A DNA stretch of 64,000 nt from Chloracidobacterium sp. N (GTDB lineage: Bacteria; Acidobacteriota; Blastocatellia; Chloracidobacteriales; Chloracidobacteriaceae). The notes below the pieces were generated by a model. It was given only the letters and a program-made list of their open reading frames with translations, searched no databases and had not been told where the DNA came from. Positions 19,909-26,256 of the stretch are shown piece after piece (positions within the stretch are counted from its first letter, which is position 1; the number at the start of each line of letters is the position of its first letter). The translations under genes and the position numbers were made by a program. The stretch covers positions 1,223,501-1,287,500 of the forward strand of contig NZ_CP072642.1 in NCBI RefSeq assembly GCF_018304765.1, in the 5' to 3' direction.

Positions 19909-20535
19909 CTAGAAGGCAACTTCAATCCCCATTTTGGACAGAGCCTGAACTATATCCTGGAGGGTAGCTTCTTTGAGAGCTATCCTCACATGCTCTTGAG
20001 CATTACCTGACTTTATGCGAAGCGGAAAACCGCTTACGAAAGACAGCCAGCTTACCATCTCGTCAGCAGGCATACTGAATTGCAAACTGATCTTTTCACC
20101 TGCCAGGAGTGCACTGCGCAAGTCCTGAAGTGCGCAGAAGTCCACGCCGTCAATTTCCACGGTTCCTCTTTTGGACAACTCTTCAAAGACCTCCCACACA
20201 GGAGCCCGTTTGAAATCAAAGCTGAAGAGGTCATCGGGTTCGGATGCCGTAAATACGATTTCTCTGCCGCTGATACGCGTGAGTTCAGAGGAGAGTTGTT
20301 CACTGTTGGAGTTGGTTACCTGGAATGTAACTTCTTTCGCTGCTCCTTTTCTTCCTTTTCCACAACCTGAGACGCATCCTCCGCTTGTAGAACAGTGAGC
20401 GTAACAGCTACCCGGACATGTTGTAACCGTCGAGCAATTGTTAGTCCCGCAACTGCAAGTATCTGCGAGGGCAACCTGCATCGGGCTGACGAAAAACAGC
20501 AAGGACAGTGATGTGGCAGCAAGCGTTTTCTTCAT
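19909..20535 (-). CDS. Secreted Cys-rich protein with STN-like repeats
   Basis: The protein is 208 residues from ATG 20535, which has AGGGGGTG about 6 nt upstream; the frame is open to 20646 but that extension is duplicated non-coding DNA. A Sec signal peptide (1-25) precedes a 35-residue segment with eight Cys (27, 29, 34, 40, 44, 48, 54, 58). Residues 68-208 appear to hold four beta-alpha-beta units, near 68-96, 102-129, 147-175 and 181-208. Each reads roughly V-x-F/L...LSxxSG-x-x-I-x-F, the pattern of secretin/TonB short N-terminal (STN) domains. No barrel or secretin domain follows. The function is unknown: it could be a periplasmic binding partner of a secretin or TonB receptor. The upstream DNA and signal peptide are duplicated at the next gene. 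It ends in a strong terminator. Confidence 0.75.
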   Translation of the reverse strand: MKKTLAATSLSLLFFVSPMQVALADTCSCGTNNCSTVTTCPGSCYAHCSTSGGCVSGCGKGRKGAAKEVTFQVTNSNSEQLSSELTRISGREIVFTASEPDDLFSFDFKRAPVWEVFEELSKRGTVEIDGVDFCALQDLRSALLAGEKISLQFSMPADEMVSWLSFVSGFPLRIKSGNAQEHVRIALKEATLQDIVQALSKMGIEVAF

Positions 20536-20700
20536 GGTTTCACCCCCTTTGAGGATATTGTGGCGAGGCTCTACTTTTGTGTAGGCGGCAGCCAATGTAG
20601 TAAGATCGAAAAAAAACGTCAACCGGAATTTCTGTTCTTTGGGCATCAGATAAGTGGAGCGCGCAATGCTTGGCCAGGCTGTGGTGGAGGCTGCTGCGAG
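20460..20700. repeat. Duplicated upstream/signal-peptide block, copy 1
   Basis: About 240 bp closely resembling 21558-21796 (roughly three quarters identical by eye). It covers the signal-peptide codons of the STN-like gene and about 165 bp upstream. Shared landmarks are GAAGAACAG/GAAAAACAG, GATATTGTG, GGCAGCCAATGTAG and GGCTGTGGTGG. Homology stops at the mature protein. Confidence 0.8.
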
Positions 20701-20848
20701 CAGGAAGTCTTTGAAACCAGCGATGCCCCACCCAGCCGGCTGGTCACCGCCAGCCGGCCACGTCGGTGGTGTTGCCGCTGTGTTGCCCGCCAGGAAGCTG
20801 ACTGACGCAGCTGCCCGCGTCGTTCGTCAAAGGAAATCCCATGAGGTT
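20536..20848. other. Intergenic region between the two Cys-rich genes
   Basis: This 313-nt gap contains the upstream half of duplicated block 1 (to about 20700), which should include the promoter of the STN-like gene. The following 150 nt are unique and show no convincing gene. No sigma-70 consensus was obvious. An A-tract lies at about 20610-20616. Confidence 0.5.
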
Positions 20849-21625
20849 TTAATTACTTGGAGGAGCGATTGGTTGGACTACTTTGGAACAATTATCAATA
20901 CATGCGCCCTCGATCAGGTAACAATTGATGATTTCCCCAGGGGGCACGTTTCTTACGCAGCTTTCACGTAGATTCCGGCAGGCCTTCAGACAATCCTGAT
21001 AGTCGCCCAAATTGGCTTTCTCTTGTACTTTGATTATTGCTTCAGGAATTGAATGCTCCGGGTTGGGTATATCTTTTGTGGCAAGCACATAGAAACACTC
21101 AGCATAGAGCGAACGGGGATCAATCTCGGCAATCATGCGAAGCCACGGCATGTCATCTGAGAAGTAAGCTTTGGCTGCTTCCGGGTTGCCAAGCGTGAGA
21201 CCGGGCAAAGGCATTTTGGGCAGTTTCCCGTCAGACATCTTAAAGTTTCTTAATGTTTCTGAACAGACATAAGCAAAAACAAAGTCATTACCTGTTTCAC
21301 CAACCAGCAACCCTGGGTATCGGAGATAACGAAATCGGTGCTGTGGAGCCGTTGTACGGTCAACTGTAATGACAATTTCCTGATGGGTTTCATAGATGGC
21401 GATTGTTGCAACCTCCTTGTCATTCTCGACAATCTGATAGCGGCCTTCCCTGAGATGTGATTTATCTCCCCGAGAACTGACGGCGAAACCGCCACCCGGA
21501 AATGATATGTTCGCCAGGCAGCCAGAGTCAGTGGCTGTGCAGGAGTAGCCTTCGGCAGGAGCGACCTGTATAAGGCTGACGAAGAACAGTAAGGACAATG
21601 ATGTAGCAGCCAGTGCCTTCTTCAT
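20849..21625 (-). CDS. Secreted protein with a symmetric C-terminal six-Cys motif
   Basis: The protein is 258 residues from ATG 21625. The signal peptide MKKALAATSLSLLFFVS is nearly the same as in the neighbouring STN-like protein, but the mature part is unrelated. The mature domain starts with two Cys (EGYSCTATDSGC). It then has a beta-rich region (REGRYQIVENDKEVATIAIY) and a helical C-terminus with Cys spacing C-x3-C-x6-C-x11-C-x6-C-x3-C. That spacing is a palindrome and suggests a disulfide-stapled helical hairpin. I do not recognise the family. The frame is open to 21790, but that part is duplicated upstream DNA. It is probably periplasmic or extracellular, and likely regulated like its neighbour because the upstream region is shared. 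Confidence 0.7.
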   Translation of the reverse strand: MKKALAATSLSLLFFVSLIQVAPAEGYSCTATDSGCLANISFPGGGFAVSSRGDKSHLREGRYQIVENDKEVATIAIYETHQEIVITVDRTTAPQHRFRYLRYPGLLVGETGNDFVFAYVCSETLRNFKMSDGKLPKMPLPGLTLGNPEAAKAYFSDDMPWLRMIAEIDPRSLYAECFYVLATKDIPNPEHSIPEAIIKVQEKANLGDYQDCLKACRNLRESCVRNVPPGEIINCYLIEGACIDNCSKVVQPIAPPSN

Positions 21626-21796
21626 GCTTTCACTCCCTTCAAAGATATTGTGATAAAACCCTGCTCTTGAGCAGGTGGCAGCCAATGTAGCAAGGTTGAA
21701 AAAAAATGTCAGCCGGAATTTTGAGCCTTTAGGCATTAAATAAGTAGAGCACGCAATGTCTGGCCCGGCTGTGGTGGTGGGGGCTGCCACGAGCGG
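21558..21796. repeat. Duplicated upstream/signal-peptide block, copy 2
   Basis: Partner of 20460-20700, in the same orientation. It covers the first ~20 codons of the six-Cys protein gene and about 170 bp upstream. The A-tract, the CAGCCAATGTAG stretch and the GGCTGTGGTGG end are kept in both copies. Confidence 0.8.
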
Positions 21797-23745: not shown

Positions 23746-24090
23746 TAGGTGACCTGCTGAAAACAGCGTGGCTGTCACAGCGTGGCCGCAGAAACGCGAG
23801 GCAAAGTCATAAACCGTTGAAACCGTTGGTGAACGGCACGCCGGCTGAAGCCAGACTTGGCGGTGGGTTTCAGGAAGGCAACTGGGGCAGGGCTGGCGCT
23901 GGTAAGCTCAATTTCACTTTTCAGGCGTCTATCAGCCTCGATGAAGGTTTGCCGTGGCCTCACCGTGGGGGCTTTGCCGTGGAAAATTCCGGGAGTGCCG
24001 TTAACGGTTTGCCTTCAAATCCGTCTTTACCCATGGGCAACCTTTTGCGTAAGGTGTAAGGCTGGCAATGCTTCGTGGGACGAGACATGC
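23746..24090. other. Intergenic stretch upstream of the ECF sigma gene
   Basis: These 345 nt hold no convincing gene; the plus-strand frames lack ribosome sites and family resemblance. GCAACCTTTT at 24037-24046 is 45 bp before the sigma start and resembles an ECF-type -35 element. No matching -10 was found at normal spacing, so autoregulation is only a suggestion. Confidence 0.45.
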
Positions 24091-24723
24091 ATGGCTGACA
24101 AGCAGGACAGGGCGCCGTACACCGGCGCTGACCACGTGGCGGTTCAGCCGGGGTTGCCAACGATGTCGGCGTGGGGGTCCACGGTGGCGGCCCTGGTCAG
24201 GGCAGCCCAGCAAGGCGACACAGCCGCTTTTGAGCGACTCTACCAGATGTTTGCGCCGATGGTGCACGGGCTGCTGGTGGCCCGCCTGCCCCTCGATGAG
24301 GTTGACGACATCATGCAGGACGTGTTCTTCACCGCCTTTCGGCAACTGGGGACCATCCGCGAGCCGGCAGCTTTCGGCGGCTGGCTGGGGGCCATTGCAC
24401 GACAGAAGGCGGCTGATTTTTTTCGCCGTTCCCATCAAACGGAATCCCTCGACGCGGCATCGGCAGAGATGATGGCGCGCAGTGGGGAACTCGACACCAG
24501 GCTCGATGCCCGCACGATCCTCGGTCATATCCGGCAGTTGCCGGAAACCTATGCCGAAACCCTGACGCTCCGCCTGGTGGAAGGGATGACCGGCCAGGAG
24601 ATTGCGGCTGTTACCGGACTGACACCCGATTCCGTACGGGTTAACCTGCACCGTGGTCTGCGATTGTTGCGTGAGCGACTGGGCCTTGGGGACAGCTACA
24701 ATGGGAAAACAGACGGCGTGTGA
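24091..24723 (+). CDS. ECF-type RNA polymerase sigma factor
   Basis: The protein is 210 residues from ATG 24091; the frame is open further upstream but conservation begins here. Sigma region 2 is AFERLYQMFAPMVHGLL...VDDIMQDVFFTAFRQL, and region 4 is LPETYAETLTLRLVEGMTGQEIAAVTGLTPDSVRVNLHRGLRLLRERL, a clear helix-turn-helix. Region 3 is absent, as in ECF factors. GGGACGAG lies about 8 nt upstream. The next gene (24760) begins 36 nt later and starts with an anti-sigma-like motif joined to TonB. So the pair probably forms an envelope-sensing switch. Confidence 0.93.
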   Translation: MADKQDRAPYTGADHVAVQPGLPTMSAWGSTVAALVRAAQQGDTAAFERLYQMFAPMVHGLLVARLPLDEVDDIMQDVFFTAFRQLGTIREPAAFGGWLGAIARQKAADFFRRSHQTESLDAASAEMMARSGELDTRLDARTILGHIRQLPETYAETLTLRLVEGMTGQEIAAVTGLTPDSVRVNLHRGLRLLRERLGLGDSYNGKTDGV

Positions 24724-24759
24724 ACACCGGGGAACTCTGGGCTGACAGGGAGCAAAGCC

Positions 24760-26256
24760 ATGCGGGATGATTATCTGTGGGATAAGTCCGGCGAGCCGTC
24801 GCCAGAAGTCGCCGAATTGGAAACTCAGCTTGGCCAGTATGGCTTTCGACATGTCGGGAGGGTGATGACCGTGAACGACTTCAATCGTGTCTCTGAAACA
24901 ACGACTGCCACCGGAACGGTTGAACCGGGCCCATCCCCGCACACATCCCGTTCTGCGTGGGCCCCCACGTTTGCTGGACTGCACAGCGAACCGCTGTTGG
25001 CTCGCCTGTGGAGCAACCTGAAGGATACCGTGCGGGACTTCATCCGCCACCCGGGGCAGTTTTTCTGGCACCAGCCTGCCCCGGACGAGCAGGGGATGTT
25101 TTCGTCAGGGCTGTATTTCGAGCCGACTTCGCGGAGTCTGTTCTCCAAGCTCGGTGAGTTTGTGCGTCAGCCGCGTGCTTTTCTGAGTCGTACACCCTCC
25201 ACCCCGGTTCCCGATGCCCCCAACCTCACCCAGATTGACACGCCGCCGATATGGGGACGGATCACGCGCGAAGTTTCCGATCTGGGCCGGCAGGTAAAGA
25301 CGAATCCCGCCGGCTACGCACGCGCCCAGTTCACCCTGACCCGTATGGAGCGGCAGCGCGCCCTGCTTTTTGGGCTGTGTTTCCTGTTCGCCTTCTTCAT
25401 CATGTCCGGGCTGATTGGTGTGTTGCTGATCTGGTCGCCGCCACTGGTCGCCGAGCAGCCGCCGGAAGAAAAAGAGGAAATGCAGCTCATTTCGATGCTG
25501 GAGTTGCCGCCCCTGCCGCCACCGCCTCCGCCGGATGACCGTCCCAGTGGCGGCGGCGCCGGCTTTGGTCTCAAAACGCCGGGGAAAGGTGGTGGTGGTG
25601 GCGGCAAAACCGATCCGGAACCGGCCATGAAGGGACGGTTGCCCGAACCAACCCTTCAGCCTGATCAGCAGATCGTTGACCCGACAACCAAGCCCCGCAT
25701 CGAGGAACCCTCCCTGCCGGTGGCTCCAAAAATCATTGCTGATCCGAAGTCCGTCCCGCCGCCGGACCTGAAGGTTCCGATTGGCGATCCCAACAGCAGC
25801 AATACAACGAAGCCTTCCGATGGCACAGGCAAACAGAACGCCGGTATCGGTAACGGCGGCGACGGGCGGAGCGTCGGCAGCGGAACCGGCCCCGGTGGCG
25901 GACCCGGGAGCGGTGGCGGTGTCGGCGGTGGCGTCGCGGGCGGCCCGGCCGGGCGCGGCCTCGGCGAGGGCGAGGGGACGGGCGTGATTACGCAGCGTCC
26001 AAAACTCGTTTATGCCGTCAAGCCGAAATATACCGAGGAAGGGCGGGTCAACAAAATCCAGGGAACGGTCGTGCTGTCAGCAACGGTCGGCCCCGATGGC
26101 TCACTCAGCAACATTCGGGTTATCAAGTCGCTTGGTTACGGTCTCGATGAAAAAGCCATTGAAGCTGCCCGGCAGTGTCGCTTTCAGCCGGCGATGGCCG
26201 ATGGCCGTCCGGTGTCGGCAACCGTGAAGTTTTCGATGGAATTCCGCCTGCTCTAG
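24760..26256 (+). CDS. Anti-sigma-like / TonB fusion protein
   Basis: The protein is 498 residues; AGGGAG lies 8 nt before the ATG. Residues 1-30 (MRDDYLWDKSGEPSPEVAEL) match the short N-terminal motif found in many acidobacterial and myxobacterial anti-sigma or FecR-like proteins next to ECF genes. Three amphipathic aromatic repeats follow (LWSNLKDTVRDFIRHPGQFF, LFSKLGEFVRQPRAFL, IWGRITREVSDLGRQ), then one membrane helix (201-224). The periplasmic side has a Pro tract (248-258), a long Gly/Pro linker and a TonB C-terminal domain (about 410-498: RPKLVYAVKPKYTEEGRVNKI..., ending SATVKFSMEFRLL). It would couple cytoplasmic sigma binding to outer-membrane energy transduction. Domain assignments are from sequence pattern; the coupling is inference. 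Confidence 0.85.
   Translation: MRDDYLWDKSGEPSPEVAELETQLGQYGFRHVGRVMTVNDFNRVSETTTATGTVEPGPSPHTSRSAWAPTFAGLHSEPLLARLWSNLKDTVRDFIRHPGQFFWHQPAPDEQGMFSSGLYFEPTSRSLFSKLGEFVRQPRAFLSRTPSTPVPDAPNLTQIDTPPIWGRITREVSDLGRQVKTNPAGYARAQFTLTRMERQRALLFGLCFLFAFFIMSGLIGVLLIWSPPLVAEQPPEEKEEMQLISMLELPPLPPPPPPDDRPSGGGAGFGLKTPGKGGGGGGKTDPEPAMKGRLPEPTLQPDQQIVDPTTKPRIEEPSLPVAPKIIADPKSVPPPDLKVPIGDPNSSNTTKPSDGTGKQNAGIGNGGDGRSVGSGTGPGGGPGSGGGVGGGVAGGPAGRGLGEGEGTGVITQRPKLVYAVKPKYTEEGRVNKIQGTVVLSATVGPDGSLSNIRVIKSLGYGLDEKAIEAARQCRFQPAMADGRPVSATVKFSMEFRLL

Follow-up and report, generated by a model that had tools for sequence, protein, structure and literature searches.

A stretch of 64,000 nucleotides from Chloracidobacterium sp. 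N (contig NZ_CP072642.1; the whole stretch is called the window below) carries a gene for an extracytoplasmic function (ECF) sigma factor, followed by a gene for a TonB-like protein that starts with the motif DDYLWDKSGEP. The two genes probably form an operon of an autoregulated ECF sigma factor and its membrane partner, in which a putative sigma-binding module of ~30 residues has been fused to what was formerly the start of a TonB protein. The adjacency of sigma gene and module, their one-to-one co-occurrence, their joint decay, a retained internal start signal and a shared promoter-like site were computed directly. The module would most likely be an anti-sigma peptide of class II with a size similar to that of CnrY. 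Genomes and loci are designated Gnnn and Lnnn; the window's own genome, G000, comprises 3.72 Mb in two contigs.

Association of the motif with one group of ECF sigma factors

The start of the sigma gene was assigned to ATG 24091, although the mechanical open reading frame begins earlier, at TTG 23857. The TonB gene follows after 36 nt on the same strand. Membership of the ECF family was indicated by sigma regions 2 and 4 (Sigma70_r2, E 1.3e-9; Sigma70_r4_2, E 3.2e-12; both over the Pfam cut-off) and by PDB matches to sigmaE, SigW and CnrH, with E. coli sigmaE-RseA as the top match in the structure search. The neighborhood of an ECF sigma gene and a motif-TonB gene, as described in the original prediction, was thus confirmed from domains and coordinates.

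When the 44 N-terminal residues of the TonB protein were searched against 199 genomes of the phylum, 8 matches reached E 5.3e-4 or better, and 3 of these belonged to the genus. The window's own genome contains no second match to these residues. A model of the module (about 27 residues, conserved over ~30) was built from 12 sequences, all previously seen beside an ECF gene; G176 and G157, with E values of 0.18 and 0.24 in the 44-residue search, entered the model because of their ECF neighbor. Across 396 acidobacterial genomes, the model separated sharply: 27 strong matches (E <= 3.9e-9) were distributed over 26 genomes, and the next 20 matches ranged from 2.5e-3 to 0.05. The loci examined were the window, those of the other 25 genomes with strong matches, three further motif-bearing loci of the family (G200, G202 and G203) and the 20 weak matches.

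An ECF gene was located directly upstream on the same strand in all 28 intact motif loci from Acidobacteriota (the window and 27 fetched loci), including 16 of 16 loci outside the model-building set. None of the 20 weak matches had an ECF gene within the 4.5-6.1 kb fetched. The distance between the ECF stop codon and the first matched motif residue ranged from -11 to +63 nt. In 10 of the 27 fetched loci it was -4, which is the overlap of coupled genes. For the reverse search, 7 candidates were scored per genome, with weaker relatives uncounted; the sigma protein was matched at E <= 1e-25 in 25 of the 396 genomes, at one place in each. These were exactly the 25 genomes with an intact motif, and sigma gene and motif were adjacent in all of them. 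In G123, the remaining genome of the 26, the motif is broken and the sigma protein was not matched at E <= 1e-25. The phylogenetic co-occurrence check that had been proposed along with the prediction therefore gave a one-to-one relation in 25 of 396 genomes, and a wide distribution of the motif on proteins without an ECF neighbor was not observed among the intact loci. The original description of the motif as typical beside ECF genes applies to a single ECF group and not in general. Judged from sequence, the motif is the mark of one sigma-partner system of one ECF group.

Behind the motif, the proteins continue with a hydrophobic helix and then with one of three bodies: a FecR-like one, a short one in which no known domain is recognized, or TonB, the last in the window's family. 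The labels FecR-like (12 of the 28 rows in the sigma tree) and short (10 rows) were assigned by eye. Pfam detected FecR over the cut-off in three of five FecR-like proteins scanned (L065, L075 and L085); L064 was below the cut-off, and L072 gave no match. Nothing significant was found in Pfam for the three short bodies scanned (L067, L070 and L082). In the sigma tree, the FecR-like carriers formed one side of a branch with support of 96/94. In this tree, the TonB label needs two changes and L062 sits on a long branch; the tree speaks neither for nor against a single origin of the TonB fusion.

Some individual arrangements were recorded in addition. Among the short bodies of Blastocatellia, the next gene encoded DUF4252 in both loci scanned for it (L067 and L079) and a HEAT-repeat protein in both of another two (L070 and L078). 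L078 (G216:C118:2073-2255) carries the motif twice in tandem within one protein. In G176 (L068), the frame that carries the motif is closed at 99 residues, and the FecR-like part is encoded in a different frame. The sole case outside Acidobacteriota, a 29th ECF-adjacent motif, was met by chance in Candidatus Eisenbacteria (L011, 3255-6978). There, an ECF gene is followed by MRDDYLWDKSGEPDADV on a protein that is FecR-like by eye and by a small exported protein; a separate TonB gene lies ~0.7 kb further on, and then a second ECF gene. As one case, this arrangement suggests a link between this sigma factor and TonB.

Species that lost the sigma gene

The genus comprises four species with an intact pair (the window's species, G096, G200 and G202) and three sigma-less species (G123, G199 and G201). 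In G123, most of the sigma gene is lost, and the motif is altered and interrupted by a stop. The sigma gene of G199 contains frameshifts and stops, and its motif has a stop and no start. For G201, little of the sigma gene can still be recognized, and the motif is out of frame. In all three species, the TonB frame is open from codon 36/38 to its end.

In the TonB tree, the sigma-less species pair with intact ones: window-G123 with support of 98/97, G200-G201 with 86/92 and G202-G199 with 99/97. The pairwise ratios of nonsynonymous to synonymous substitution rates (dN/dS) of TonB for these pairs were 0.12, 0.08 and 0.15, respectively. Four pairs of intact species gave values of 0.065-0.082, at high dS (0.94-1.83). 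Three independent losses of the sigma gene are the best reading of these data; possibly there were two. The joint loss together with the open TonB frame implies that sigma factor and module fall together and that TonB is independent of them. These natural knock-outs support a role of the motif as a putative sigma-partner module.

The fusion joint and a possible internal start

Codons 33-34 of the TonB gene read GGG AGG in all four intact species, which also share GTG as codon 38. Of the 25 arginines that are conserved between these species, 3 are encoded by the same codon throughout, and the AGG of the joint is the only conserved AGG. A GGAGG with an in-frame start at 4-10 nt occurs once in the gene of each species, with codon 38 at 9 nt. 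Synonymous shuffling produced such a pair at codon 36/38 in 5 of 2000 shuffles for the window and in 5, 2 and 1 of 1000 shuffles for the other species; because the four species are related, the four tests are not independent. Codon identity was raised around the joint, with 8 of 12 columns identical for codons 16-35 (3.2 expected) and 7 of 12 for codons 31-50 (2.5 expected), and some other stretches of the gene exceed the expected value as well, such as codons 106-125 (6 versus 3.2).

In the sigma-less species, the joint reads GGGAGG (G123), GGAAGG (G201) and GAGAGG (G199); in G199, codon 36 is no longer start-capable and codon 38 is ATG. Motif and ECF gene are present in G203 and GGAGG is absent. 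Two unfused TonB homologues, G051:C72 and G063:C125, have GTG CAA GAY at the place of the joint, preceded by GGAGG at 10 nt and 8 nt, respectively; neither motif nor ECF gene was found in the 16 kb fetched around them. Most simply, an old TonB gene would have received the module in frame at its start and kept its ribosome-binding site. One gene may then yield both a sigma-binding TonB and, from GTG38, a sigma-free TonB.

The promoter-like site

The pattern AAC-N15/17-CGTC was taken from the Chloracidobacterium alignment before counting, and several spacings were tried. Of the 27 stretches in front of sigma genes that were scanned (the window's and 26 others), 26 contained the pattern, with L066 as the only miss. 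In 200 base shuffles, it occurred in 1.15 loci on average and in at most 4. The homologous site in G202 reads ATAAC..CATC and the counted match lies elsewhere, so that the cautious count is 25. TTAAC is present at the site in 20 of the 23 loci listed. Locus L071 (G382) stands outside both the promoter count and the 23-locus listing; it has its ECF gene 63 nt upstream, is included in the sigma tree and shows GTTAAC..CGTC ~300 nt before the sigma match. Among the sigma-less species, the site is altered in G199 and not recognizable in G201. G330 and G372 have a second site after the partner gene, and in G125 the sole site found is located there. The occurrence of the sites at the sigma gene suggests that the sigma factor may autoregulate.

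Two attempts to define a regulon were discarded. In the window's own genome, AACNGTT-N11/13-CGTC gave 36 matches compared with 60 for the reversed control. GTTAAC-N16/17-CGTC gave 144 matches compared with 454 for the control in sum over 20 genomes, and exceeded the control only in G351 (10 versus 6) and G330 (5 versus 4). A conserved leader, CGTCTTTACCCATGGGCAACCTTTTGCGTAAGGTG, was observed at 24022-24056; it precedes the sigma gene across the genus, is kept in the sigma-less G123 and occurs once in the window.

Architecture of the TonB fusion protein

The TonB_C domain was matched at residues 421-497 with 69 bits at a cut-off of 24.6. The protein has one long hydrophobic stretch, followed by a Pro/Gly-rich spacer. 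This agrees with the predicted single membrane crossing and C-terminal TonB domain. A membrane anchor and a proline-rich spacer, as in TonB proteins, are both present, and the anchor is preceded by a cytoplasmic part of ~200 residues. E. coli TonB has an S-x3-H element in its transmembrane helix. No His is present in residues 202-226 of the window's protein, nor in the hydrophobic stretch of L005, the TonB protein of this genome that is linked to ExbB. No Pfam family was matched in residues 1-200, and the conserved module covers only ~30 residues; a class I anti-sigma (ASDI) domain was thus not recognized there. A FecR domain was absent from the Pfam scan of the protein.

Three aromatic amphipathic repeats had been noted between motif and membrane helix. 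Units A and C proved related by profile in 10 of 10 sequences tested (8.5-27.2 bits, compared with at most 6.8 in 2000 shuffles). Unit B of the window's protein reached 6.5 bits and that of the seven sequences tested 3.4-6.8, whereas 2100 shuffles reached 10.8; its scores fall inside the shuffle range, and a third copy is therefore not supported. Members of the genus have two to three repeat units before the transmembrane helix. One unit was found in both G063:C182 proteins and two in G203, G051 and G063:C125. Since the units occur in TonB homologues with or without the motif, and also without an ECF gene, they are regarded as a juxtamembrane module of the TonB line.

An AlphaFold2 read-through model, in which the sigma factor continues into TonB residues 1-77, had a mean predicted local distance difference test score (pLDDT) of 75.7 and a predicted template modeling score (pTM) of 0.46. 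Sigma regions 2 and 4 were confident, and the module was predicted with two short helices, at residues 4-8 and 15-25. The module blocks had pLDDT values of 63/77/76 beside the sigma factor compared with 48/60/46 in the TonB part alone. The best PDB matches of the read-through model were ECF factors with or without a partner, including CnrH-CnrY. When ECF chains were aligned over both sigma domains, the root mean square deviation was at least 11.6 A, so the domain placement in the model matches none of these chains. The model of the N-terminal TonB part (residues 1-240) was poor, with a mean pLDDT of 53.3 and a pTM of 0.21, and no fold is claimed for the repeats.

Features of the sigma-TonB locus (positions in the window)
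Feature	Position	Strand	Basis
Candidate autoregulatory ECF promoter GTTAAC-N16-CGTC	24000..24025	+	AAC-N15/17-CGTC conserved upstream of sigma genes
ECF sigma factor, 210 aa	24091..24723	+	Pfam regions 2 and 4 over cut-off; PDB matches
Motif-TonB fusion protein, 498 aa	24760..26256	+	Sequence and Pfam
Putative DYLWD sigma-partner module, codons 1-27	24760..24840	+	Module model; 28/28 intact copies adjoin ECF
Internal GGGAGG and start-capable GTG codon 38, fusion joint	24856..24873	+	Only such pair in gene, 4/4 intact species
Juxtamembrane repeat unit A, residues about 70-105	24967..25074	+	Unit C profile, 14.4 bits
Possible degenerate repeat unit B, residues about 117-151	25105..25209	+	6.5 bits, inside shuffle range
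Juxtamembrane repeat unit C, residues 155-192	25222..25335	+	Precedes transmembrane helix in 12/12 homologues aligned
Transmembrane helix, residues about 202-226	25363..25437	+	Hydrophobic stretch; AlphaFold2 helix 183-225
TonB C-terminal domain	26020..26250	+	PF03544, E 5.1e-19

Downstream of the TonB gene lies a gene that, judged by its sequence, encodes a thymidine/pyrimidine phosphorylase-like protein. A PepSY_TM protein is encoded upstream of the sigma gene on the opposite strand; its gene looks truncated in G123. Further upstream, two proteins encoded on the minus strand (19909-21790) resemble each other at their starts (MKKTLAATSLSLLFFVS.. and MKKALAATSLSLLFFVS..) and gave no Pfam match. 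Elsewhere in the genome, another unusual fusion was seen in L002 (1501-1764; G000:C2:382668), where TonB_C ends a protein that is HEAT-repeat-like by eye.

Proposed mechanism and alternatives

In the proposed mechanism, the TonB body would stand where a FecR-like or domainless body sits elsewhere in the phylum. The module would most likely tether the sigma factor to the inner membrane until the TonB part senses a change, either load on the C-terminal domain or cleavage, and lets it go; the sigma factor would then transcribe its own operon. Binding, inhibition, signal, autoregulation and the shorter TonB from the internal start are what we infer of the mechanism. As a tentative extension that we hold for possible rather than probable, the gene would be nested: from two ribosome-binding sites, its single frame would give a long TonB that holds the sigma factor by its 30 N-terminal residues and a short TonB, from GTG38, that does not. 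Transcription would then be set by the proportion of sigma-bearing TonB together with the state of the envelope, mechanical or energetic, and after loss of the sigma gene TonB would carry on alone, as in the three sigma-less species.

Several points weigh against the proposed mechanism. In the tree of the downstream phosphorylase, which covers six species and lacks G200, no resolved grouping was obtained for G202, G201 and G199; G199 and G201 are draft assemblies, and the G200-G201 pairing reaches just 86/92, so that three losses are likely, not certain. A GGAGG-plus-start pair arose anywhere in the gene in 467 of 2000 synonymous shuffles of the window's sequence. The genome-wide promoter scans were not above the reversed control in sum, and no regulon was found in them. 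The pLDDT comparison of the module is weak, at a pTM of 0.46 and without interface information, and the gain beside the sigma factor counts as weak support because the two alignments differ in depth. Inhibition is not established, since the N-terminal part of E. coli FecR is reported to be needed for sigma activity.

Among the alternatives, TonB_C could serve an anti-sigma factor merely for sensing or anchoring in the periplasm and transduce no energy, which we regard as possible but doubtful. This reading draws on a second ECF system in the genome, L006 (G000:C1:1978207-1978812), where an ECF factor is combined with a one-transmembrane partner with a TonB_C-like end. Homologues of L006 were matched in 30 of 58 genomes of the class, and an ECF gene lay beside the homologue in 20 of 20 loci (L119-L138). 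The C-terminal profile of this family matched TonB_C with a probability of 96.5% and an E value of 8.9e-10 in a profile-profile comparison, so that TonB_C-like ends occur here on the partners of two different ECF systems. A zf-HC2 domain was detected in 9 of 9 relatives scanned (7 over the cut-off), whereas no zinc-finger N terminus was found in L006 itself by Pfam. TonB_C, however, was below the cut-off in L006 and in the 7 of 9 relatives in which it was detected (0 over the cut-off), and the long spacer is absent from that family. The TonB domain of the window is full and was kept after sigma loss in three species, which argues that it has a job of its own.

The fused TonB might instead work with ExbBD, so that release of the sigma factor would report the load at outer-membrane receptors; we consider this rather unlikely. 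The full TonB_C domain over the cut-off and the long Pro/Gly-rich spacer fit such an energy-transducer sensor, and 17 proteins of the genome match Plug, 16 of them over the cut-off, and a single one matches MotA/ExbB. The MotA/ExbB match, however, is located outside the window beside another TonB_C protein, L005. None of the Plug matches of the genome falls within the window, and the five best-scoring of the 17 Plug proteins have no STN domain; all five start with CarboxypepD_reg. Receptor occupancy as the input to transcription, as originally proposed, thus found no support in the window or in the five receptors scanned.

The module could also act as a co-activator of the sigma factor, as for FecR, and not as an inhibitor. 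The FecR-like bodies of 12 of 28 motif carriers, three of five scanned over the Pfam cut-off, would be in line with this, as would PMC7406223 and PMC9249621, according to which FecI activity requires or is stimulated by N-terminal portions of FecR in E. coli. No FecR domain is present in the protein of the window, however, and we judge co-activation improbable here. That the genes form a plain operon, with the motif as an N-terminal extension that makes no sigma contact, is very improbable in view of the one-to-one co-occurrence across three bodies and the joint decay, although contact between sigma factor and module is itself deduced.

Relation to known systems

CnrY, the anti-sigma factor of CnrH in Cupriavidus and of class II type, has no TonB. 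The window's module is similar to it in the short cytoplasmic peptide and in the two short helices predicted here, a likeness of size and predicted helices. As outlined in PMC4598750, two CnrY helices embrace CnrH. Class I anti-sigma domains average 101 residues according to PMC7406223, in which domains of <50 residues were set aside as possible class II.

FecI and FecR are alike in combining an ECF factor with a membrane partner, and motif carriers outside the window's family are often FecR-like. The window's partner differs in having TonB_C instead of FecR, and STN is missing from the 5 of 17 receptors tested. The pair may thus resemble a cell-surface-signaling pair, but it lacks the FecR domain and was not filed there. 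VreA of the P. aeruginosa PUMA3 system shares a C-terminal domain of the TolA/TonB superfamily within ECF signaling; PMC2729926 describes VreA as a protein of its own that is mostly soluble, contains an STN-like domain and is unfused to the sigma partner. Fusion within an ECF chain is shared with IutY of P. putida, where, according to PMC9249621, it is the sigma factor that is joined with the regulator; in the window, the partner of the sigma factor is fused to TonB. The zf-HC2/transmembrane/TonB_C-like partners of Blastocatellia (L006 and L119-L138) share an ECF factor with a one-transmembrane protein and a TonB_C-like end. They differ in their size of about 200-300 aa, the lack of a long spacer, another sigma factor and another N terminus.

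The strings DYLWD, YLWDGSG, YLWDKSG and DDYLW were not found in a literature text search, and among the titles and abstracts listed none dealt with an anti-sigma/TonB fusion of this kind. If the TonB part still does TonB work, the energy transducer itself would leash the sigma factor, a simpler arrangement than the chain from receptor over FecR to FecI. Even otherwise, the locus would present a very short sigma-partner module that is the one-to-one partner of an ECF factor and is carried on three kinds of body. It would offer a clean system for asking what the minimum size of an anti-sigma factor is, with the three sigma-less species as ready-made controls.

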